Below are positions 6,551 through 36,318 of a stretch of DNA of 36,318 bases, piece by piece (the stretch's first letter is position 1; the number at the start of each line of letters is the position of its first letter). This DNA is from Eubacteriales bacterium (GTDB taxonomy: Bacteria; Bacillota; JASUSC01): the NCBI GenBank assembly GCA_030446285.1, contig JASUSC010000011.1, forward strand, positions 1 through 36,318. The letters are read 5' to 3'. Under the pieces are notes generated by a model. That model saw only the letters and a program-made list of their open reading frames with translations, searched no databases and was not told the origin of the DNA. A program made the translations under genes and the position numbers.

Positions 6551-6655
6551 CCCTTATCGAGAGCGGCGGAGGGACTGGCCCGATGAAGCCCGGCAACCCC
6601 CCGGCAGGGGAAGGTGCTAAATCCTGCGGAACGTGCGTTCCGGGAGATAAGGGGA
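6551..6655 (+). ncRNA. SAM-I (S-box) riboswitch
   Basis: CTTATCGAGAGCGGCGGAGGGACTGGCCCGATGAAGCCCGGCAACC...GGTGCTAAATCCTGC...AGATAAGGGG matches the S-box core. Confidence 0.95.
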
Positions 6656-6694: not shown

Positions 6695-6710
6695 GTGCTG
6701 AAGGAGGTTG

Positions 6711-7666
6711 ATGGCAGTGAGGATTGACACCATCTTGGCCCAGGCGGGGATCTGTTCTTCTCCTCTTTCAGCCGGGGGATCATTTGGTGGTGAGCCAGGA
6801 TGTTTACGGCGGTACGTACCGGGTTCTGACCACTCTCTTCCGCCGCTGGGGTCTAGAAGTTACCTTTGTAGACAGTTCCGTCCCGGAGCAGGTAGAAAAG
6901 GCGGTGAGGCGCAATACCCGGGCCCTTTACGTGGAGACCCCCTCCAATCCCCTTTTGAAAATAACCGACCTGAAAGCAGTGGTGGAGATTGCCCGCCGCC
7001 ACGGGTTACTGACCATCATCGACAATACTTTCATGACCCCTTATCTCCAGCGTCCCCTGGCCCTGGGTTTTGATATCGTCATCCACAGCGCTACCAAATT
7101 CTTAGGCGGTCACAGCGATCTGATTGCCGGCTTAGTGGTTACGGCCGATGAGAAGACGGGGAAGAAGTTGAAATTCATTCAGAACGCTTTCGGTGCCATT
7201 TTGGGCCCCCCAGGACTCCTGGTTGCTGCTCCGCGGGATGAAAACCTTAGCGGTGCGCGTGGAAGCTCAGCAGGCGGGAGCAGCGAAGCTGGCTCGCTGG
7301 TTGAAGGAACGAAAAGGGATTAAGGCGGTGTACTATCCGGGCTTGGAGGAACATCCAGGCTATGAAATTCACCGGCGCCAGGCTGCGGGGGGAGGAGCGG
7401 TTTTGGCTTTTGAGCTTCCCGACAGGGAAAAGGTCTTCTGCTTCATGCGGGCGGTAAAACTTTCTCTGAAGGCGGTGAGCTTAGGAGGGGTGGAGAGTAT
7501 TCTCTCTTACCCGGCTACCATGTCGCACGCGGCTGTACCGCCGGAGGAGAGACGGCGTTTAGGGATTGGTGACGGACTGGTGCGGCTTTCAGTGGGGCTG
7601 GAAGCGCCGGAGGACCTTCAGGAAGATTTGGAACGAGCCTTGCAGCAGGCAGGAGTAGAGGGGTAA
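6711..7666 (+). pseudogene. Degenerate cystathionine gamma-synthase/methionine gamma-lyase family PLP enzyme
   Basis: N-terminal MAVRIDTILAQAGIC in one frame, then LFQPGDHLVVSQDVYGGTYRV...IHSATKFLGGHSDLIAG in a second, then DSWLLLRGMKTLAVRVEAQQ...YYPGLEEHPGY in a third. Confidence 0.88.
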
Positions 7667-25240: not shown

Positions 25241-25343
25241 GAACTGGCAACAGGTCCGGTTTTTTCACGGTCGGGGGATGGGAATAATCCTGCCGCATAT
25301 GGTCAAACTATGAATGAGAAAAATTTTCCAGGGAGGTATAGCT

Positions 25344-26351
25344 TTGCGAGTAGGGATACCACGGGGCATGCTTTTTTACCACTACTATCCCCTATGGCGC
25401 ACTTTTTTCTCTGAATTAGGGGCGGAAACAGCCGTGTCTCCCGCCACCAACAAAGAGGTCCTCGGCCGGGGAGTGGCGGAAGCGGTGGACGAAACCTGTC
25501 TGCCGGTGAAAATTTTTTACGGTCACGTAGCCTGGCTGTTGGAACGGGGAATAGATGTGGTTTTTGTTCCCCGCCTGGTGAGTGTGGAGAAGGGTGCCTA
25601 TATCTGCCCCAAACTGCTGGGACTTCCCGATATGATCCGCAATCATTTCCGCCTGGACGGGAAAATTATCGACGTCACCGTCAACTTGAATCGCAAACCC
25701 CGGCAGCTCTACCGGGCCGTTTATGAGACGGGCCGACTCTTTACCAAGCGTCCGGACTGCATCTACCGGGCCTTCTGCCGGGGATTAGAGTGCCTGAAGC
25801 AGTACGAAAAGCTTCTGCAGAGGGGGCTTTGGCCGGAAGAGGCCCTGGCGGTTATGGAAAACCGGAGCGGGAGTAGGGAGGAGAAGGAAAAGGAAGGGGA
25901 AAGGCTCAACCTGGCCCTCATCGGCCACGTGTACAATTTGTACGATGGTTATGCCAGCATGAACCTGTTGACCAAATTGAACAGGATGGGGGTGCGGGTT
26001 TTCACTCCGGAGACCCTTCCTTGGTATCTCATCCAGCAGCGGGCGGCGACTCTGCCCAAACCCCTCTTCTGGACCCTGGGCAAACGAATGGTGGGAGCGG
26101 CTTTTCACTACCTGGCCGATCCAACCATCCACGGCGTGATTTACTACGTGGCTGCTTTCGGCTGCGGCCCGGATTCCTTCACCGCCGACATCGTCTCCCG
26201 GCAGGCCCGCCGGTTGCGTAAACCCTTCCTACTCCTTACCGTTGACGAACACAGCGGGGAAGCGGGGCTGGTGACCCGCCTGGAAGCCTTTGTTGATATG
26301 GTAAGATGGAGGCTGGAGAAGGATGAAAATAACCTTCCCGCACATGGGTAA
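25344..26351 (+). CDS. Acyl-CoA dehydratase activase-related protein (DUF2229-like)
   Basis: RVGIPRGMLFYHYYPLWRTFFSELGAETAVSPATNKEV; VDETCLPVKIFYGHV; VPRLVSVEKGAYICPKLLG; TTG start with SD GGGAGGT. Confidence 0.82.
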   Translation: MRVGIPRGMLFYHYYPLWRTFFSELGAETAVSPATNKEVLGRGVAEAVDETCLPVKIFYGHVAWLLERGIDVVFVPRLVSVEKGAYICPKLLGLPDMIRNHFRLDGKIIDVTVNLNRKPRQLYRAVYETGRLFTKRPDCIYRAFCRGLECLKQYEKLLQRGLWPEEALAVMENRSGSREEKEKEGERLNLALIGHVYNLYDGYASMNLLTKLNRMGVRVFTPETLPWYLIQQRAATLPKPLFWTLGKRMVGAAFHYLADPTIHGVIYYVAAFGCGPDSFTADIVSRQARRLRKPFLLLTVDEHSGEAGLVTRLEAFVDMVRWRLEKDENNLPAHG

Positions 26352-27444
26352 TATGTACATCTGCGTCCGAGCGCTGTTGGAGTACCTGGACCTGGACGTG
26401 GTGGTCCCGCCGCCCACCAGCAAAAGAACCCTTACTTTAGGGACGGCGGTAGCGCCGGAATTCGCTTGTCTTCCCCTCAAAATAAATTTAGGTAACTTCA
26501 TCGAAGCCCGCGAGTTAGGGGCTGATACCGTTATCATGGCCGGCGGCCGCGGTCCTTGCCGTTTTGGGTACTACGCCCAGATTGAAAAAGGGATTTTAGA
26601 AGACTTAGGGATGGAACTGAAGATGCTGGTGATCGAGCCGCCCCAGAAATCGGTGCGGGAGTTTCTCCAGGAGATAAAGGATACCGCCGGCGGCAAGTCG
26701 TGGTGGACCATTATCCGGGCTATCCGATTCGGCTGGGAAAAGATCAAAGCCGTAGATGAGATTGAGAAAGAAGTTATGCGGCTCCGAGCCAGGGAGGAGA
26801 AGACCGGCGTGGTGGATGCCGTCTATCGAGAAGCTCTGCAGGCCGTTGACCGGGCCGGCAGTTACGAGGAATTGAAGGGAGCGGTTCGGGAGGCGAAGGA
26901 GCGCCTGGCGGCCGTTCCTTTGAGGAAAGAAGAGGACGACATCCTCCGCATTGGCATTACCGGGGAGATTTACACCCTTCTTGAACCTTTTGCCAACCTG
27001 GATATTGAGCGCAAATTAGGACGGATGGGGGTGGAGGTGGAGCGGTCCATCATGCTCAGCGAGTGGATTGACGAACACCTTTTCTTAGGACTTGCCCGTC
27101 ACAACCACGGCCACGAGACCAAGAGGGCGGCCCGCCCCTACATCAACCATTTCGTCGGCGGGCACGGCCAGGAGACTTTGGGCAGTGTGAACCGCTACTG
27201 GCAGCAGGGGTTTGACGGGGTGATTCAACTCATGCCTTTTACTTGTATGCCGGAGATAGTGGCCCAGAGTGTGTTGCCTCGGGCCCGGGAGGAATTGGAT
27301 ATGCCCGTTCTCACCCTCATCGTGGACGAGCACACGGGAGAAGCCGGTTTTATCACCAGGTTAGAAGCTTTTGTCGATCTGCTCCGGCACCGGAAGGAAA
27401 GGAAGAGAGAAGGGAAACTGGTGGTACCGGTGGGAAGAGCTTAG
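26323..27444 (+). CDS. Acyl-CoA dehydratase activase-related protein (DUF2229/CoA-protein-activase-like), tandem partner
   Basis: KITFPHMGNMYICVRALLEYLDLDVVVPPPTSKRTL; FACLPLKINLGNFIEARELGAD; PFTCMPEIVAQSVLP; overlaps previous CDS by 29 nt. Confidence 0.82.
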   Translation: MKITFPHMGNMYICVRALLEYLDLDVVVPPPTSKRTLTLGTAVAPEFACLPLKINLGNFIEARELGADTVIMAGGRGPCRFGYYAQIEKGILEDLGMELKMLVIEPPQKSVREFLQEIKDTAGGKSWWTIIRAIRFGWEKIKAVDEIEKEVMRLRAREEKTGVVDAVYREALQAVDRAGSYEELKGAVREAKERLAAVPLRKEEDDILRIGITGEIYTLLEPFANLDIERKLGRMGVEVERSIMLSEWIDEHLFLGLARHNHGHETKRAARPYINHFVGGHGQETLGSVNRYWQQGFDGVIQLMPFTCMPEIVAQSVLPRAREELDMPVLTLIVDEHTGEAGFITRLEAFVDLLRHRKERKREGKLVVPVGRA

Positions 27445-27569: not shown

Positions 27570-28779
27570 CGCTGAGAATACCTCCTTCGCTCATCACTCG
27601 CGCCCGGCGCACCGCCGCCGGGCCGTATTTTTCCCGCAGCCGGTCGCAGGTCCGGGCCAGTTGGCGCAGGCGTTCCCGGTTGCTCCACAGTTCCCGTTGC
27701 CAGCAGGTGAGCGGCTGCAGGTTGCCTAAGGTAATACCCACCATGCGCACTCCCCGCCAGGAAGGCCAGTGGTCCTGGAAGATGGCGACGGCAGCGGCGT
27801 AAATGTCTTCGGCCAGGTCGGTGAGGTGGGGAAGGGTGTGGGACCAAGAATGGGTGACGAAATCGGGACTGCGCAGGGTGAGGGTGACGGTGCGGCCGCC
27901 ATAACCTTTGCGGCGGGCGCGGCGGGCTACCTCTTCAGCTAACAGGAGCAGCACCCCTTTCATCTCCTCTAAGGTGTGGTAGTCCTGGGGCAGGGTGATG
28001 CGGTTGCCCACGGACTTCATTTCTTCTAAGCTGCTCGGATCCACCGGGCTGGGGTCGATGCCGTGGGCGGAGAGGTAGAGAACCCGGCCCACAACACCGA
28101 ACTTTTTCTCCAGCAGTTTTACGGGGCAGCGGGCTAGGTCGCCGATGGTGCGGATGTTCATGGCCAGCAGTTTGGCTTCTATGCGCGGACCGACACCGAA
28201 CAGTTCTCGCACTGGCAAGGGCCAGAGGCGGAGGGGGACGTCTTCCCGGGTGAGGACGGTGAGACCGTCGGGTTTTTCCAGTTCCGCTGCCATTTTGGCT
28301 AAGAGCTTGTTGGGGGCCACTCCTACCGAGCACAGGACCCCTACTTCCTCCCGGATGCGTTCTTTGAGGCGGCGGGCAATGGTCACGCCGTCTCCCCAGA
28401 GGTGTTCACACCCGGTGACGTCTAAGAAGGCTTCATCGATGGAGAAGGGCTCCACCAACGGGGTGAAATCTTTCATTATTTTCAGGATACGGAGGGAGAA
28501 GTCCACGTAAAGGTCATAGGAGGGAGGGAGATATACGGCGTCAGGAAGGAGGCGGCGGGCTTCTCCTAAGACCATTCCCGTCTTGATACCGTATTTTTTG
28601 GCTTCATAGGAAGCCGCCAGGACGATGCCGTGCCGTTTGGCCGGGTCGCCGGCCACGACAACCGGTTTGCCCCGCAGGCGGGGGTCTAAGGCTTGGTGGA
28701 CGGAAGCGAAGAAGGAGTTCATGTCGGCTAGAAGAATGCAGCGCTCCCAGCGGGAGCTCTTTTCTTTTTCTCCCCTCAT
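27562..28779 (-). CDS. dinB: DNA polymerase IV (Y-family)
   Basis: ILLADMNSFFASVHQALDPRLRGKPVVVAGD; FSIDEAFLDVTG; SVGVAPNKLLAKMAAELEKPDGL. Confidence 0.96.
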   Translation of the reverse strand: MRGEKEKSSRWERCILLADMNSFFASVHQALDPRLRGKPVVVAGDPAKRHGIVLAASYEAKKYGIKTGMVLGEARRLLPDAVYLPPSYDLYVDFSLRILKIMKDFTPLVEPFSIDEAFLDVTGCEHLWGDGVTIARRLKERIREEVGVLCSVGVAPNKLLAKMAAELEKPDGLTVLTREDVPLRLWPLPVRELFGVGPRIEAKLLAMNIRTIGDLARCPVKLLEKKFGVVGRVLYLSAHGIDPSPVDPSSLEEMKSVGNRITLPQDYHTLEEMKGVLLLLAEEVARRARRKGYGGRTVTLTLRSPDFVTHSWSHTLPHLTDLAEDIYAAAVAIFQDHWPSWRGVRMVGITLGNLQPLTCWQRELWSNRERLRQLARTCDRLREKYGPAAVRRARVMSEGGILSDE

Positions 28780-28790
28780 CCCATTCCCTC

Positions 28791-28840
28791 CAAACATATG
28801 TTCGTAAAAACATTGTACTACCGAACAAGTGTTCTGTCAA
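28791..28840 (-). promoter_or_regulatory. dinB promoter with two LexA/SOS boxes
   Basis: Minus strand TTGACA (28835-28840), 17-nt spacer, TACAAT (28812-28817); boxes CGAACAAGTGTTCT (28822-28835) in the spacer and CAAACATATGTTCG (28791-28804) downstream, versus CGAACN4GTTCG. Confidence 0.85.
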
Positions 28841-28937
28841 GGGAAGGTCCGGGAGTGGCTGGTGAGGAGTTTTTGCGCTTTCCGAGCTGGAAGGGAAGAA
28901 AGACAGGCTATAGCCATTCTTTGTCACAGGAGTAATA

Positions 28938-28984
28938 GTGATAAAAATATTTTATAACTGCAATAACTAAACCCGATATATAAT
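28938..28984 (+). promoter_or_regulatory. Palindrome and -10 element upstream of the seven-gene redox cluster
   Basis: GTGATAAAAATATTTTATAAC (28938-28958) imperfect palindrome; TATAAT at 28979-28984; no good -35. Confidence 0.55.
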
Positions 28985-29026
28985 CGAGGCAGAAAATTTA
29001 AATTTTTTGCCTGGGAGGAAAGGTAA

Positions 29027-30301
29027 ATGAGCGACAACCGGCAGATGTGGGCTGAATTAGGAATGGATCTGGAAAAACACGATGATTTTCTGGCACCGCT
29101 CCCGGCGGTTTACCAGGAGTTGTTCCTGAACCGGCCCGACCGCCCGGCGGGGATGGGCTATTTCGATGCCGTGGTGGGGGACGTGCACGGGATTCGTGTC
29201 CGGGAATTAGTGGAGCACCGTCGGCAGGGCGGGAAGGTGGTGGCTTCCTTCTGCGTCTTCGTGCCGGACGAGATCACCTTAGCTTGCGGCGGGGTGAGCA
29301 TCGGTCTGTGTGCCGGCGCCCAGTACCCGGTGCCGGCGGCGGAGAAAATTCTGCCTCGAGCCCTCTGTCCCCTGATTAAGTCCAGCCTTGGTTTCAAGTT
29401 AGAGCGGATTTGCCCCTACTTCCAGGTGGCCGATTTAGTGGTGGGGGAGACCACCTGTGATGGAAAGAAAAAAGCCTGGGAGATTCTCAGGGAATACGTG
29501 CCTGTACACGTTATGGAGCTACCGCAAAAGAAGGGAGAGGCCGATTTCCGTCTCTGGCGCCACGAGGTGGAGGAATACCTGCGGCGAATGGAAGAAATGA
29601 GCGGGAAAAAGGTTACCGCTGCCGATCTGAAGGAAGCGGCGGCGGTGATGAACAGAAAACGCCGGGCTCTGAAAAGACTTTACCGGGCACGCCAGGCTGA
29701 CCCTGCTCCGATCAGCGGTCTGGATGCTATGCTGATTGTCCAGCTTTCCTTCTTCGACGATCCGGTACGGTTCAGCGAAAATGTAGAAGAACTCTGCGAG
29801 GAGCTGGAAGAGAGGATAGCCAACGGCAAAGGGGTGGCGGCGAAAGGAACACCGCGGATTCTGATAGCGGGGACTCCCATGCCTTTGCCGCACTGGAAAC
29901 TCCACGCTTTGATCGAAAATGCCGGCGGCGTGGTGGTGTGCGAGGAGAGCTGCACCGGTACCCGTTACTTTGAGCAGGAAGTGGATGTCAGCGGTGACAC
30001 CGTGGACGAGATTTTGGACGGTATAGCTCGCCGTGCCATGGGGATAAACTGCGCTTGCTTTACTCCCAATGAGGAGCGGGTAGAGGACATTCTCCGGCTT
30101 GTGCGGGAGTACCGGGCGGACGGGGTTATCTACTACAACCTCCAGTTCTGCCAGCCCTACAGCGTGGAGTTCTACCGGGTAGAAAAGGCCCTGACGAAGG
30201 AAGGAATTCCCGTCCTGCACTTGGAGAGCGATTTCAGCGACGAGGACACGGAACAGCTCCGCACCCGCATTGAAGCTTTCCTGGAGTTGATCCGGCGGTG
30301 A
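29027..30301 (+). CDS. Double-cubane-cluster protein / 2-hydroxyacyl-CoA dehydratase D-component-like (HgdB/BcrC fold)
   Basis: GYFDAVVGDVHGIRVRELVEHRRQGGKVVASFCVFVPDEITLACGGVSIGLCAGAQYPVPAAE; ERICPYFQVADLVVGETTCDGKKKAWEIL; followed by its activase. Confidence 0.88.
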   Translation: MSDNRQMWAELGMDLEKHDDFLAPLPAVYQELFLNRPDRPAGMGYFDAVVGDVHGIRVRELVEHRRQGGKVVASFCVFVPDEITLACGGVSIGLCAGAQYPVPAAEKILPRALCPLIKSSLGFKLERICPYFQVADLVVGETTCDGKKKAWEILREYVPVHVMELPQKKGEADFRLWRHEVEEYLRRMEEMSGKKVTAADLKEAAAVMNRKRRALKRLYRARQADPAPISGLDAMLIVQLSFFDDPVRFSENVEELCEELEERIANGKGVAAKGTPRILIAGTPMPLPHWKLHALIENAGGVVVCEESCTGTRYFEQEVDVSGDTVDEILDGIARRAMGINCACFTPNEERVEDILRLVREYRADGVIYYNLQFCQPYSVEFYRVEKALTKEGIPVLHLESDFSDEDTEQLRTRIEAFLELIRR

Positions 30302-31059
30302 TTACAGCCGGGCTGGATATAGGTTCCACGGCTACCAAGGCCGTCCTTTACGACGGGAAAATAAGGGCTACCGTTATTCGCCCCACCGGCTGGGATGTGC
30401 GGGCCACCGCCCGGGAGGTCTTGGAGGAAGCCCTGACGGCAGCCGGCGTCTCTTTTCCCGATTTGGCAGGAGTTGTGGTCACCGGCTACGGCCGCCAGGC
30501 GGTGGATTTCGGCGCTAAGAAGGTGACGGAAATCACCTGCCATGCCCGGGGAGTGCACCACCTTTTTCCGGAAGCAACCCTGCTTATCGATGTCGGCGGT
30601 CAGGACAGCAAGGTAGTGCGTCTCGGCTCCGGCGGACGGGCGTTGTCCTTTCGCATGAACGATAAATGTGCGGCCGGTACCGGCCGCTTTCTCCAGCTTA
30701 TGGCCGGTGTTTTGGGTATGGCGCCGGCGGAGATGGACTGGCCGGAAGGAGTGGAGCCGGTCAATATCACCAGCATGTGTGCTGTCTTTGCCGAGTCGGA
30801 AGTGGTGGGACTCCTGGGTCAGGGGGTGGCCAGGGAGAAGATCGTTGCCGGGCTGTTTAAGGCGGTGGCAGCCCGCTTCCTGTCCATGCTGCCGGAGGGG
30901 GGAACGGAAGGGCTCATCGTCTTTACCGGGGGCGGCGCCCTGTGGCCCGGTCTGCGTAAGGCCCTTGAGCGAGGTTTAAACCGGGAGGTGGTAGTGCCGG
31001 AGGAACCCCGTATAACCGGGGCTTTGGGGGCGGCGCTTATTGCGGCTGAAGGAAACTAA
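30298..31059 (+). CDS. ASKHA-type ATPase activator of the double-cubane/dehydratase protein
   Basis: AGLDIGSTATKAVLYDG; DVGGQDSKVV; NDKCAAGTGRFLQ and TSMCAVFAESEV (cluster-bridging Cys motifs); GTGA overlap with upstream stop. Confidence 0.93.
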   Translation: MITAGLDIGSTATKAVLYDGKIRATVIRPTGWDVRATAREVLEEALTAAGVSFPDLAGVVVTGYGRQAVDFGAKKVTEITCHARGVHHLFPEATLLIDVGGQDSKVVRLGSGGRALSFRMNDKCAAGTGRFLQLMAGVLGMAPAEMDWPEGVEPVNITSMCAVFAESEVVGLLGQGVAREKIVAGLFKAVAARFLSMLPEGGTEGLIVFTGGGALWPGLRKALERGLNREVVVPEEPRITGALGAALIAAEGN

Positions 31060-31099
31060 GGGCGGGTAAGTGCTTTGCCCGGGTAAAGGGGGAAAGAGG

Positions 31100-33070
31100 A
31101 TGGGGAGAAGAATAGGCGTTTTTGTTTGCTGGTGCGGTTCTAATATTGGCGGGGTAGTGGATGTCTCGCGGGTGGCGGAGGCGGCCAAAAAATTTCCGGG
31201 GGTTGTTTTCACTCAGGAATACAAGTACACCTGCTCCGAACCCGGGCAGGAAATGATGGTTCAGGCCATCAAAGAGCACCAACTGGACCGGGTGGTGGTG
31301 GCATCCTGTTCTCCCCGGATGCACGAACTGACCTTCCGCAAGACGGTGGCTCGGGCCGGTCTCAATCCCTACCTGATGGAAATGGTCAACCTGCGGGAAC
31401 ACTGTTCCTGGGTTCATCCCGATGACCCGGAGGGAGCCACGGAGAAGGCCATTGCCTTAGTGCGCAAGGCGGTGGCCAAAGCGGCACGATTGGAGCCCCT
31501 TTACGAATCTCGCATCGGTATTACCAAACGGGCCCTGATCATCGGCGGCGGTATTGCCGGGATTCAGGCTGCGCTGGATATTGCCGACCACGGCTATGAT
31601 GTGGTGATGGTAGAAAAAGAGGCCACTATAGGCGGGAAGATGGCCATCCTGGATAAGACCTTCCCAACCCTGGATTGTTCTGCCTGCATCTGCACGCCCA
31701 AAATGGTAGACGTGGCCCAGCACCCCCGCATAACCCTGTATACGCTGGCGGAGGTGGAACAGGTCAGCGGCTACATCGGCAATTTTGAAGTGACTATCCG
31801 GTTGAAGGCCCGCTATGTGGACATAAAAAAATGCACCGGCTGCGGTCTCTGTGAAACCAAGTGTCCGGTCAAAGTGCCCAGTGAGTTCGAACAGGGGTTG
31901 GGAATGCGCAGCGCTATTTACAAACCTTTTCCGCAAGCTGTGCCTAACAAGCCGGTCATTGACGCGGACAACTGCCGCAAACTGCGAGAAGGAAAGTGCG
32001 GTCTCTGCGCCAAAATTTGTCCCACCGGTGCCGTGAACTACGAAGATGAGGACGTTTTCATCACGGAAAAAGTAGGGGCCATTGTCATGGCTACGGGTTT
32101 TGAATTGATTGACTGGACCCAGTATTACGGCGAATACGGCGGCGGGAAATACCCCGACGTTATCACAGGCCTGCAGTTTGAACGCTTGGTCAATGCTTCC
32201 GGGCCCACCGGCGGGAAGATAAAACGGCCATCGGATGGCAAAGTACCGGAGACGGTGGTTTTTATCAAATGTGTTTCCTCCCGTGATGATAAGAAGGGCA
32301 AAGCCTACTGTTCCCGGGTCTGCTGCATGTACACGGCAAAACATGCCATCCAGGTGAAAGAAAAGTTGCCCGACACAGAGGTATACGTTTTTTACATGGA
32401 CGCCCGCAACCCTGGCAAGGGCTATGATGAATTTTTCGAACGAGCCAAAAAAGCAGGGGCCAAATACATCCGCGGCCGGGTTTCCAAAATCTACCGTGAG
32501 GGAGACAAATACATCGTCAAGGGAGAAGACACCCTGATAGGTCGCAATATTGTGGTGGAAGCCGACATGGTTGTTCTTGCTACGGCTATGGTACCCGTAA
32601 GCAATGCCGCCGATTTGGCCCAGAGAGTAGGATTTTCCTACGACAAGGAGGGCTTCTTCACCGAAGCGCATCCCAAACTGCGGCCGGTGGAAACCAATAC
32701 TGCCGGAGTCTTTCTCGCCGGGTGCTGCCAGGGCCCCAAAGACATACCCGATACGGTGGCGCAAGCATCGGCGGCAGCTTCTAAGGTAACGGCTCTCTTT
32801 TCCAGGGACGAGATGGAGACCACGCCCATGATTGCTAGCGTAAACCCAGACCTCTGTTCGGGCTGCGGTCTTTGTTTGAGTATTTGCCCCTACAAGGCTT
32901 TGAGCTTGCAGGAAACACCGGACGGGAAGCGGTTTGTGGCGTCGGTTAATGCCGGTTTATGCCAGGGCTGCGGGGCGTGTACGGCCGAATGTCGTCCGGG
33001 TGCTCTCAATTTAAAAGGCTTTACCAATGAGCAAGTCATAGCGGAGGTGAGGGCGGCATGTCTGTTTTAA
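31100..33070 (+). CDS. hdrA: CoB-CoM heterodisulfide reductase subunit A-like iron-sulfur flavoprotein
   Basis: GVFVCWCGSNIGGVVDV; ALIIGGGIAGIQAALDIADHGYDVVMVEKE; several CxxCxxCxxxC ferredoxin motifs. Confidence 0.95.
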   Translation: MGRRIGVFVCWCGSNIGGVVDVSRVAEAAKKFPGVVFTQEYKYTCSEPGQEMMVQAIKEHQLDRVVVASCSPRMHELTFRKTVARAGLNPYLMEMVNLREHCSWVHPDDPEGATEKAIALVRKAVAKAARLEPLYESRIGITKRALIIGGGIAGIQAALDIADHGYDVVMVEKEATIGGKMAILDKTFPTLDCSACICTPKMVDVAQHPRITLYTLAEVEQVSGYIGNFEVTIRLKARYVDIKKCTGCGLCETKCPVKVPSEFEQGLGMRSAIYKPFPQAVPNKPVIDADNCRKLREGKCGLCAKICPTGAVNYEDEDVFITEKVGAIVMATGFELIDWTQYYGEYGGGKYPDVITGLQFERLVNASGPTGGKIKRPSDGKVPETVVFIKCVSSRDDKKGKAYCSRVCCMYTAKHAIQVKEKLPDTEVYVFYMDARNPGKGYDEFFERAKKAGAKYIRGRVSKIYREGDKYIVKGEDTLIGRNIVVEADMVVLATAMVPVSNAADLAQRVGFSYDKEGFFTEAHPKLRPVETNTAGVFLAGCCQGPKDIPDTVAQASAAASKVTALFSRDEMETTPMIASVNPDLCSGCGLCLSICPYKALSLQETPDGKRFVASVNAGLCQGCGACTAECRPGALNLKGFTNEQVIAEVRAACLF

Positions 33071-33507
33071 ACAATCAAGATAAGGCCAAAGAATGGCGGC
33101 CGAGAATAGTGGTCTTTGCCTGCAACTGGTGCAGTTATGCCGGTGCTGACCTGGCTGGTATCAGCCGTATCAAGTATCCGGCCACTGCCCGGGTCATTCG
33201 GGTCCCCTGCTCGGGGAGGGTAAACCCCCACTTCGTATTGCAGGCTTTTCAATACGGAGCAGATGGCGTCCTGGTTTCCGGCTGTCACCCAGGGGACTGC
33301 CATTACGCTACCGGCAACTACTTTACCCGTCGCCGGTTCCAGGTTTTCCGACGTTTGTTGGAATACGTGGGTTTCGAAAAAGAACGTTTCCATGCCCGCT
33401 GGATTTCTGGCTCCGAAGGGGGTAAATTTGCCGAAACGATAACGGAAATTACTGCTGCCATCAAAAAATTAGGACCGAACAGAAAGATGAGGAGGGAGCT
33501 GCACTAA
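33058..33507 (+). CDS. mvhD: MvhD-like hydrogenase/heterodisulfide reductase iron-sulfur subunit
   Basis: FACNWCSYAGADLAGISRIKYPATARVIRVPCSGRVNPHFVLQAFQYGADGVLVSGCHPGDCHY. Confidence 0.95.
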   Translation: MSVLNNQDKAKEWRPRIVVFACNWCSYAGADLAGISRIKYPATARVIRVPCSGRVNPHFVLQAFQYGADGVLVSGCHPGDCHYATGNYFTRRRFQVFRRLLEYVGFEKERFHARWISGSEGGKFAETITEITAAIKKLGPNRKMRRELH

Positions 33508-34586
33508 TGTTAAAAAGGAATTTTATCGTCATTGCCGGGGTAGTAATCGGTCTGGTGGCTTTAGTTCTGGCGGCAGCCGGTAATCCGCCTAATATGGCCC
33601 TATGTGCCGCTTGTTTCGTCCGGGATATGGCCGGTTCCCTCGGTTTGCACCGGGCTAATACAGTCCAATATATGCGACCGGAAATTATCGGCATCGTTCT
33701 CGGCGCCTTTGTTACTTCCTTAGCTACTAAAGAGTTTCGTCCCCGCGGCGGGGCCAATACGGCCGTCCGTTTTCTCCTCGGGTTTTTAGTCATGGTGGGG
33801 GCGCTGGTGTTTCTCGGCTGTCCCATCCGCCTTATCCTGCGGTTAGCGGCGGGGGATCTGAATGCCTTTGTAGCGCTGCTGGGATTGATAGCCGGAGTTT
33901 TTGTGGGTGTAAAACTTCTCGCCGGTGGTTACTACAGCGGCCGTAGCAACCCGGAGAAGGGCGGCATTGGTGGTCTTTTGGTACCGGCTGCAATGGTGAT
34001 TTTCCTCCTTCTGCTTATTGCAAAGCCCGTATTTAACCCGCAGGCGGGCGGGCCCCTTTTCTTCAGCAAAGAGGGTCCCGGTTCCCTCCATGCTCCTCTG
34101 CTCTTCTCTCTAGTGGGGGGACTGGTGGTAGGAGTGGTGGCCCAGCGCAGCCGCCTGTGTTTGGTGGGCGGGATCAGGGATCTCCTGCTGCTGAGGGATT
34201 TTCACCTGTTAAAGGGCTTCGTGAGCATTTTCGCGGTGGTTTTCTTAGGCAACCTGATTATGGGGAAGGTTAATTTTGCTTTTGCCGGCCAGCCTATCGC
34301 CCATACCGCACACCTGTGGAATTTTTTGGGGATGTTTTTGGTAGGACTGGCTTCCACCCTGGCTGGAGGTTGTCCCCTGCGCCAGCTCATCTTGGCTGGG
34401 GAAGGGGATTACGATGCCGGCATGTACGTGGCCGGGCTCTTTGCCGGTGCGGCTTTCGCTCACAACTTCATGCTGGCTGCCAGTCCCAAGGGGGTAACGG
34501 TCTACGGTCAGATAGCGGTTATAGCCGGAATTATCGTTGCCGTAATAATTGCCCTGGTGAGCAGGGAAGTTTACCGGGAGGGATGA
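33507..34586 (+). CDS. yedE: YedE/YeeE-family membrane transporter (selenium/sulfur related)
   Basis: CAACFVRDMAGSLGLH, PEIIGIVLGAF, SRLCLVGGIRDLLLLRD, LAGGCPLRQLILAGEGD. Confidence 0.9.
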   Translation: MLKRNFIVIAGVVIGLVALVLAAAGNPPNMALCAACFVRDMAGSLGLHRANTVQYMRPEIIGIVLGAFVTSLATKEFRPRGGANTAVRFLLGFLVMVGALVFLGCPIRLILRLAAGDLNAFVALLGLIAGVFVGVKLLAGGYYSGRSNPEKGGIGGLLVPAAMVIFLLLLIAKPVFNPQAGGPLFFSKEGPGSLHAPLLFSLVGGLVVGVVAQRSRLCLVGGIRDLLLLRDFHLLKGFVSIFAVVFLGNLIMGKVNFAFAGQPIAHTAHLWNFLGMFLVGLASTLAGGCPLRQLILAGEGDYDAGMYVAGLFAGAAFAHNFMLAASPKGVTVYGQIAVIAGIIVAVIIALVSREVYREG

Positions 34587-34590
34587 TATA

Positions 34591-34803
34591 ATGGAGCTGA
34601 ACCTTTGCGGTCTGAGTTGTCCGCTGCCAGTGGTGCGGACGCGGGAGGCCTGGCAGAAATTGTCCGGCGGGGAAGAGCTGAGACTGGTGGTGGATTCGCC
34701 GGTGGCTAAGGAAAACGTCCTGCGTTTTTTAGAAAACAGCGGCGGTAAGGTGGAAAAGGTAGAGGAGAAGGATGGGGTTACGGTCATTTCTGTGCGGAAA
34801 TAA
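34591..34803 (+). CDS. TusA/YedF-family sulfurtransferase-like protein
   Basis: MELNLCGLSCPLPVVRTREAW (CxxxCPxP motif). Confidence 0.93.
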   Translation: MELNLCGLSCPLPVVRTREAWQKLSGGEELRLVVDSPVAKENVLRFLENSGGKVEKVEEKDGVTVISVRK

Positions 34804-34825
34804 AAGGGAAGGGGAGGACGCGGTT

Positions 34826-35074
34826 TTGCTCGCTTTCCCTTCCCTCCACTACGCTCTAAAGGCAGAAAGGATTGTGCAGGAGGCCGGAATAACCGGGGGA
34901 CTTCGGCCTACTCCCCGTTCAATCAGCACGTCCTGCGGTCTGGTTTTAGCGGTGAAAGAAAAAGACCTAGCGGCCGTGAAAGAACTTTTCGCTTCCCGGG
35001 CTTTCCCAGTAGAAAGGGTTTATTTCCCCGTCGCCGGAGGGTGGCGGGCAGAAGAGGAGGGAGAAACCGGGTAA
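34826..35074 (+). CDS. DUF3343 putative Se/S carrier-like protein
   Basis: LLAFPSLHYALKAERIVQEAGITGGLRPTPRSISTSCGLVLAVKEKDL; TTG start uncertain. Confidence 0.85.
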   Translation: MLAFPSLHYALKAERIVQEAGITGGLRPTPRSISTSCGLVLAVKEKDLAAVKELFASRAFPVERVYFPVAGGWRAEEEGETG

Positions 35075-35090
35075 AGGAGACAGCAAGGAA

Positions 35091-35108
35091 TTGTAATCAT
35101 TTTCACAA
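35091..35108. promoter_or_regulatory. CRP/FNR-family-like palindrome
   Basis: TTGTAA-TCATTT-TCACAA, same TGTRA-N6-TYACA form as the site at hcp. Confidence 0.45.
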
Positions 35109-35109
35109 T

Positions 35110-35157
35110 AGCCCGTTTTCCTTCTGGTAAGGACAGGGGGAAACGGGCTTATATTTT
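35110..35157 (+). terminator. Terminator of the seven-gene cluster
   Basis: AGCCCGTTTTCC...GGGGAAACGGGCT followed by TATATTTTTT. Confidence 0.85.
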
Positions 35158-35279
35158 TTGCCACGTTGCTGTCGAGGCCAAACCTACCAACGGAGGGAGG
35201 TAAACAGCATCTACTGAAAATTGAGGCCGTGTAAAATTTCAGTAGGTGAGAGCAGGAGATAAGGCAGGGGATAAAGAAA

Positions 35280-35330
35280 AAGAGACCTCACCAGAGCAAA
35301 CCAGAAATTAGAAGGAGGGTGAGGTCTCTT
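35280..35330 (+). repeat. 13-bp perfect inverted repeat enclosing the transposase SD
   Basis: AAGAGACCTCACC (35280-35292) and GGTGAGGTCTCTT (35318-35330); AAGGAGGG in the loop/3' arm; ATG at 35331. Confidence 0.9.
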
Positions 35331-36051
35331 ATGAAAAACATTCAGCTATTTAACATTCGCCAAATAGTGGGCTCAATCCTTCTTTTAGCGCACAAAATGG
35401 AGGAAATAATTACGGGGAGCAAAGATTTTTACGAGATAGAGAGAAGGATACATGAAGTGAGCCAGGAAATATGCAAGCGGATGCTGAGTTGGGCATTAGA
35501 GGAGATAGACAAGCGGCTGATGGAAGAGCGGGACCGGGAAAGGTGGGAAGTGGTAGGGTTTCGGACGAAGGGAGCGATAAGCAGCTTTGGGGAATTTCCA
35601 TTTAAGAGGCGGTTGTACCGGGACAAAAAGACTGGGGAGAGCAAATTTTTGTTGGATGAAGTATTAGGCTGGCCGAAGGGGGTGAGGATAACCCCGCGGC
35701 TGAGGGAGATATTGCTCAGATTAGGGAGCGAAGTATCTTTACAATGTAGCGCGGCGGATGAAGCGGTTAGGAGCACGGTGGACGATAGAAGGAGGCGACC
35801 GGATGGCGCGGGTATTAGCTGCGAAGGCCGATGGTAGACTGGCGGGATACGTTTGGCGGTGGCCTGTAGAGGGAGAGAAGATAAGAGGGGTGGTAGAGGG
35901 ACGGAGAGGAGGGAAATTTAAGGAAGAAGACATGGAGAAATGGCTGCGGGTAACCATACCGGCCTTAGAAGGGCCATATGGGGGGCGGCCATGGGTGAAG
36001 CATGTATTACGGGAGGCAGTACGGCATAGTACCAGATTTTTGGTGGGGTAG
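35331..36051 (+). pseudogene. ISLre2-family transposase remnant (internal deletion and frame change)
   Basis: N-terminal part through EVSLQCS (about 35748), then C-terminal LGARWTIEGGDRMARVLAAKADGRL...VKHVLREAVRH in another frame. Confidence 0.8.
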
Positions 36052-36318
36052 CACCCGGAAAAAGTCGATAAGGGAGGGGGCAGAGAGTTTTGGCTTAATG
36101 GTAAAAAGAAGCAATAATACAAAATAATCCCTGATAACATCCCTACGCTTGGTGAGGTCTCAGGACAAAAAATTTTTTTGGAAAAAGCACCTACTGAATC
36201 TTGACACGGACCAGAAGGTGGCATCGAGTAAAATTATTTCGGGGGAAGGAGGAGTAACACAAAAAAAGAAGAACCTCACTCCGAGTGGGAAGAAACAAAG
36301 ACAAATGGAGGGGAGTGA

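Follow-up and report, generated by a model that had tools for sequence, protein, structure and literature searches.

Why should a bacterium transcribe together an ATP-dependent reductase, two subunits that belong to an electron-bifurcating complex and a set of genes of the kind that handles selenium or sulfur? The question is raised by seven genes on the + strand, at positions 29027-35074 of a 36,318-nucleotide stretch of contig JASUSC010000011.1 from an Eubacteriales bacterium (assembly GCA_030446285.1); this whole stretch is called the window below. The genes encode a double-cubane cluster protein (DCCP) and its activase, HdrA and MvhD, and a YedE, a TusA-like and a DUF3343 protein. The genome is a metagenome-assembled genome (MAG) of 1.7 Mb, 82% complete and the sole member of its class among the genomes compared. 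A first inspection of the letters (the sequence-only reading) had proposed HdrA-MvhD as the electron donor of the DCCP and its activase. This is probably wrong: HdrA and MvhD of the window are cysteine paralogues of selenocysteine (Sec) subunits encoded on another contig of the same genome (C47). To judge from the sequences, the seven genes probably form a selenium-scarcity operon, in which selenium acquisition would be paired with selenium-free replacement subunits.

The evidence that carries this reading lies in the third and fourth genes. Families were assigned throughout by profile searches against curated cut-offs. The hdrA open reading frame (ORF; 31070..33070, + strand, with a probable start at ATG 31100 judged from homologues) encodes an HdrA of the flavin/FeS bifurcating, MvhD-linked type with the expected domains. 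Its best match is NF040770, at 860 bits; this 666-aa protein stays under the cut-off of 1100 because it lacks the fused C-terminal MvhD of that family. Gene 4, mvhD/flxD (33058..33507, +), matches PF02662 with 182 bits. Gene 3 covers positions 1-640 of NF040770 and gene 4 positions 638-775, and together they correspond to the fused HdrA2.

One other close HdrA occurs in the assembly, the copy on C47, where it is part of an operon hdrC-hdrB-hdrA-mvhD-flxC-flxB-flxA. The names flxA, flxB and flxC were given from gene order and from the NAD-binding domain of the last gene, with no match to a curated family. On C47, hdrA and mvhD contain one in-frame TGA each, in both cases at a site of conserved cysteine, and the other five genes have no internal TGA. 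HdrA reads LDCSAUISTPK on C47 versus LDCSACICTPK in the window, and MvhD reads LVSGUHPGDC versus LVSGCHPGDC. The window codons at the two Sec sites are TGC in hdrA (31685..31687, +) and TGT in mvhD (33283..33285, +), and neither is followed by a hairpin resembling a Sec insertion sequence (SECIS). The window pair thus duplicates, in selenium-free form, precisely the two Sec subunits and none of the other five. A side observation concerns the same site (31676-31700) and its homologues in loci L201, L203, L208 and L214: Cys-type HdrA reads CSACICTP there and the Sec forms CSAUISTP, so that several Cys-type proteins carry an extra cysteine two residues past the Sec site, possibly a compensating change.

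The window HdrA is 79% identical to that of C47 and is its sister in the tree of the sequences compared (support 96/98), and the window MvhD shares 73-78% identity with the Sec MvhD of the genome. With dN at 0.16 and dS saturated, the divergence of the copies is ancient and purifying selection has acted on them. The C47 TGA codons are followed by stem-loops of 7 and 8 bp, and G099 (L186), whose genome belongs to a different family, has stem-loops at a similar position in its Sec genes; the case for SECIS elements is limited to this position and its conservation between two genomes, and does not extend to folding energy. The hairpins at the corresponding places in hdrA and mvhD of the window are among the weakest of all the copies compared. 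Selenoproteins known from Clostridia, for example from Moorella and Carboxydothermus, include Sec forms of HdrA and FrhD/MvhD (PMC1794560). A scan for HdrA across all species gave 29 loci only, mostly distant; the closest, from Ammonifex (64%), lies in an hdrCBA-mvhD cluster whose MvhD is a Sec protein.

Three parts of the Sec-decoding machinery were found in the genome. SelA and a SelD that itself contains Sec (in-frame TGA) are encoded on contig C63, and SelB and YedF on contig C29. At L200:4816-7353 of the same genome selB is directly followed by yedF at the contig end, and a tRNA-Sec gene may lie just beyond. Next to the Cys pair the window carries yedE (33507..34586, +), whose product scores 475 bits against TIGR04112, the SelD-associated putative selenium transporter family (cut-off 200), and is the single match to that family in the assembly. 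It is followed by the gene for a TusA-like sulfur/selenium carrier (34591..34803, +; PF01206, 74 bits), with TIGR03527, the N-terminal half of YedF, as its best NCBIfam match, below cut-off, and by the gene for a DUF3343/Se_S_carrier protein (34772..35074, +; PF11823, 68 bits, cut-off 25). Genes 5 to 7 are therefore predicted to be a module of the selenium type, and the associations of their families suggest a role in selenium uptake and relay.

The same three genes can be read in terms of sulfur. YedE would then import a sulfur compound, TusA and DUF3343 would relay persulfide, and the DCCP and HdrA-MvhD would take part in reducing sulfur or in assembling Fe-S clusters; the Cys copies would then have no connection with selenium. 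YedE indeed comes from a sulfur-transport superfamily and also matches PF04143, and PF11823 proteins occur in organisms without SelD as well (PMC5322559). However, the window YedE scores just 47 bits against the thiosulfate family, the genome contains SelA, SelB and SelD, and the HdrB1/B2, HdrC1/C2 and lipoate-binding parts of the sHdr system are not in the operon. A sulfur operon would also leave the Sec/Cys pairing unexplained, and we consider it unlikely.

The first gene (29027..30301, +; 424 aa) is predicted to encode a true DCCP and not a dehydratase subunit, since it scores above the cut-off of NF040772 (502 bits against 350), its eight cysteines are invariant across 133 aligned homologues and it is placed within the DCCP clade. 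It aligns end to end with the DCCP chains of PDB entries 6eno and 7yyl from Carboxydothermus (612 bits), and dehydratase profiles score at most 116 bits on it. In the DCCP tree it belongs to a clade of long proteins (about 424 aa, 60 members, support 1.0), as opposed to the short ones. The second gene (30298..31059, +) encodes the ATP-dependent activase of the ASKHA type (TIGR00241, 231 bits, cut-off 125; PF01869), with cysteines in the motifs KCAAGTG and SMCAVF. A second pair of the dehydratase/activase superfamily lies a few kb from the operon, after a SpoVAE-type sporulation gene: two overlapping DUF2229/CoA-enzyme-activase-related genes at 25314-26351 and 26323-27444.

The company that DCCPs keep was surveyed in 399 genomes of the phylum, DCCP and selenium-type YedE being counted when above cut-off. 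This YedE was present in 78 of 116 genomes with a DCCP versus 75 of 283 others (Fisher p 5e-14, uncorrected for relatedness), and the two genes lay within 20 kb of each other in 12 of the 76 genomes having both (about 1.5 expected). Among 120 DCCP neighbourhoods, picked mainly from the best-scoring DCCPs and not as a random sample, 48 held at least one of selA, selB, selD, yedE, yedF and the DUF3343 gene. DUF3343 immediately adjoined 21 of 63 long DCCPs versus 2 of 70 short ones; the subclade of the window DCCP (23 members) has no immediately adjacent DUF3343. The linkage of the DCCP to selenium genes thus recurs across the phylum, and the insertion of HdrA-MvhD was seen only in the window. 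The sequence-only reading had suggested a gene-neighbourhood survey to see whether all seven genes occur together, and had named a lack of conservation of the hdrA-mvhD-yedE linkage as telling against it. The linkage is not conserved in this sample, which tells against that part of the reading: an MvhD of any kind occurred in 2 of the 120 neighbourhoods and the arrangement of the window in none, so that a conserved partnership of HdrA-MvhD with the DCCP was rejected. In G364 a Cys-type gene resembling mvhD does occur near a DCCP, but it was likewise set aside, as it lies with an [FeFe]-hydrogenase-like gene. It follows from the survey that the DCCP belongs with selenium/sulfur genes and that the HdrA-MvhD pair is a newcomer.

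These figures bear directly on the proposal of the sequence-only reading, in which HdrA-MvhD is a dedicated module giving low-potential electrons to the activase and the DCCP, and the last three genes deliver a sulfur or selenium substrate. The pair is apparently co-transcribed with the DCCP genes, and a flavin/FeS bifurcating HdrA could in principle reduce a ferredoxin that feeds the activase. Apart from the scarcity of MvhD near DCCPs, MvhD must itself be supplied with electrons by hydrogenase, Flx or Fdh, and none of these is encoded in the operon; nor does electron feeding predict a duplicate of the Sec subunits of another complex with cysteine exactly at the Sec sites. We hold this explanation to be improbable too. 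In a selenium-scarcity operon HdrA-MvhD would stand beside selenium genes because they are Cys paralogues of Sec subunits, with no electron transfer to the DCCP needed.

Most of the structural description given by the sequence-only reading was sound. The ORFs bear out seven + strand genes with the overlaps described: a GTGA overlap between the DCCP and activase genes, 13 nt between hdrA and mvhD and one shared base between mvhD and yedE. The tusA and DUF3343 ORFs overlap by 32 nt, the DUF3343 start being uncertain and possibly further downstream. One transcription unit had been claimed, and neither a promoter-like nor a terminator-like site was found at 31060-31100; gene 7 is followed by a strong intrinsic terminator (35110..35160, +), a hairpin at 35110-35149 and then a U run (-25.2 kcal/mol, z -4.71, no shuffle equally stable). 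The profiles also agree with a double-cubane protein and its ATPase activator, with an HdrA/MvhD split over two genes and with a YedE-TusA-DUF3343 module of the selenium/sulfur type, and the first gene indeed falls outside the dehydratase subunits by profile and phylogeny. No HdrB, HdrC, FlxABC, hydrogenase or dehydratase partner gene was found in the operon, as had been noted for all but FlxABC; HdrB, HdrC and FlxABC are encoded on C47.

Upstream of the operon a -10-like TATAAT (28979..28984, +) was read in the sequence; it is absent from the list of the consensus promoter scan, and no good -35 was seen for it. Adjoining it, between the -10 and the ribosome-binding site, lies a candidate operator, a 26-bp near-perfect palindrome (28987..29012; AGGCAGAAAATTTAAATTTTTTGCCT; 12 of 13 pairs). 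It is the longest palindrome in the window, and none of 500 dinucleotide-shuffled versions of the upstream region gave one to equal it. No convincing copy was found elsewhere in the examined parts of the genome, and no Rfam riboswitch or leader was found upstream of the operon. Just past the terminator, at 35319-36051, lies an apparently frame-broken remnant of an ISLre2/UPF0236-type transposase. That a duplicated hdrA-mvhD was inserted by chance between unrelated gene pairs, without regulatory meaning, would agree with the occurrence of the arrangement in 1 of 399 genomes and with transposase remnants just downstream, but is very improbable given the tight junctions (13-nt overlap, one shared base), what is apparently one transcription unit, furnished with an operator-like palindrome and a terminator of its own, the long-term purifying selection on the pair and the fact that the inserted genes are selenium-free versions of Sec subunits beside the only match to the selenium-type YedE in the assembly.

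For a selenium-scarcity operon we propose the following course of events. When selenium is short, a repressor, with the start-site palindrome as its probable binding site, would come off and the operon would be derepressed. YedE, TusA and DUF3343 would take up selenium and pass it on, thereby raising acquisition. The DCCP and its activase would carry out an ATP-driven low-potential reduction in the same chalcogen pathway, probably aiding acquisition; we infer their place there from the recurrence of the gene neighbourhood. The Cys forms of HdrA and MvhD would replace the Sec forms and assemble in trans with HdrB, HdrC, FlxA, FlxB and FlxC encoded on C47. In a more specific and tentative version, which we find possible but would not call likely, the DCCP and activase act as an ATP-driven reductase on an imported selenium (or sulfur) compound, releasing or reducing it for TusA and DUF3343, and are co-expressed in a dedicated bacterial selenium-scarcity operon with the selenium-free Hdr subunits that sustain the bifurcating complex.

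Several results weigh against a selenium-scarcity operon. Taken over whole segments, the folding energies of the SECIS-like elements do not differ significantly from those of shuffled sequences, and high-scoring hairpins turn up in some Cys genes too. A tRNA-Sec gene was not found in the 82%-complete MAG, the sole RF01852 match over cut-off being a tRNA-Ser(UGA). The seven-gene operon contains no regulator gene, and the LysR-type regulator linked to a Cys pair in another genome (G004, see below) has no match in the genome of the window at 1e-20. All seven genes were found together in a single MAG, none of the 120 other DCCP neighbourhoods having the HdrA-MvhD arrangement, and among the matches listed no other MvhD lies within 20 kb of YedE. 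Deletion of YedE in Methanococcus maripaludis gave no clear selenium-uptake phenotype (PMC11097638).

Cys and Sec versions of HdrA are found together elsewhere. Close paralogues of both kinds coexist in G004/G050, G089, G147 and G390 and probably in G236. In G004 (L208:7898-11226) a Cys hdrA-mvhD is followed within a few nt by a gene for a LysR-type regulator, and a Sec (TGA) hdrA-mvhD is present on contig C31, which makes this genome a second candidate for selenium-controlled Cys isoforms. In G147 a Cys hdrA-mvhD with flxCBA lies 20-25 kb from a yedE-tusA-DCCP-activase-DCCP-DUF3343-selD-yedF cluster; this proximity to selenium genes is suggestive only. On the same contig as that selenium cluster (L201:769-13362), a few kb upstream of the Cys hdrA-mvhD-flxCBA, a formate dehydrogenase alpha subunit has cysteine at what is apparently the usual Sec site (ARLCHASTVGG). 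G390 contains an orphan Cys hdrA-mvhD pair without selenium genes. In M. maripaludis, selenium depletion strongly raises the transcripts of Cys-HdrA and of VhcD, an MvhD homologue, as well as those of YedE (+5.3 log2) and TusAD (+4.5), all these genes being spread over separate operons, and the Cys isogenes are under the control of a LysR-type repressor, HrsM (PMC11097638). For Desulfobacterium autotrophicum, the parts of the genome paper available to us conjecture that selenoproteins give way to Cys paralogues when selenium is limiting (PMC2702500).

The recurrent neighbourhood suggests that the DCCP has its place in selenium (or sulfur) metabolism, and, if the specific version above is true, this widespread, substrate-less family would gain its first physiological role. 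Cys copies sharing an operon with a putative selenium transporter would connect selenium acquisition with a Sec/Cys switch in a bacterium, and a single promoter for the whole set would offer one testable control point. The arrangement is also indirect evidence for a role of YedE, TusA and DUF3343 in handling selenium. In the excerpts of the literature found, a switch from Sec to Cys is on record for methanococci and is no more than a conjecture for a bacterium, and these excerpts contain no description of Cys paralogues linked to selenium uptake genes.

Far from the operon, the window has a SAM riboswitch (6551-6653, 95.8 bits) upstream of 6708-7666, where apparently two overlapping pieces of one gene for a cystathionine gamma-synthase-like pyridoxal phosphate enzyme are found, as if frameshifted.

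Among known systems, sHdr sulfur oxidation is set apart from the window by its hdrC1B1A-hdrC2B2 and lipoate-binding genes, none of which was found at 28600-36318. With the HdrABC-MvhD and FlxABCD-HdrABC complexes the window shares the HdrA and MvhD subunits with their expected domains; HdrB, HdrC, FlxABC and hydrogenase are not in its operon, whereas C47 has HdrBC and FlxABC together with the Sec HdrA and MvhD. The genome of D. autotrophicum resembles that of the window in having both Sec and non-Sec Hdr/MvhD paralogues, but the available parts of that paper (PMC2702500) do not describe its Cys copies as linked to genes for selenium uptake. For Slackia heliotrinireducens, Lin et al. 2015 (PMC5322559) list YedE, SirA/TusA-like, DUF3343, CoA-enzyme activase and 2-hydroxyglutaryl-CoA dehydratase-like genes as STRING partners; the activase and dehydratase-like genes, partners there of YedE, YedF and DUF3343, are listed without discussion, and no Cys isoforms of HdrA-MvhD are reported in such clusters. 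The DCCP of Carboxydothermus hydrogenoformans (PDB 6eno, 7yyl) and its activase belong to the same family as those of the window, with 612 bits and the cysteines conserved, but here the DCCP is set in an operon of the selenium type. A further close parallel is the Sec/Cys isoform switch of M. maripaludis and M. voltae (HdrAU/HdrA, VhuD/VhcD), in which the LysR-type regulator HrsM takes part. The window operon contains no LysR gene, a LysR gene being linked to the Cys pair in G004, and the window differs from the methanococcal switch in being bacterial, in duplicating the Sec subunits only and in placing hdrA, mvhD, yedE and tusA in one operon with the DCCP pair and DUF3343. The same two protein families nevertheless exchange Sec for Cys in both cases, and the YedE and TusA that respond to selenium depletion in M. 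maripaludis (PMC11097638) have their counterparts beside the window pair.

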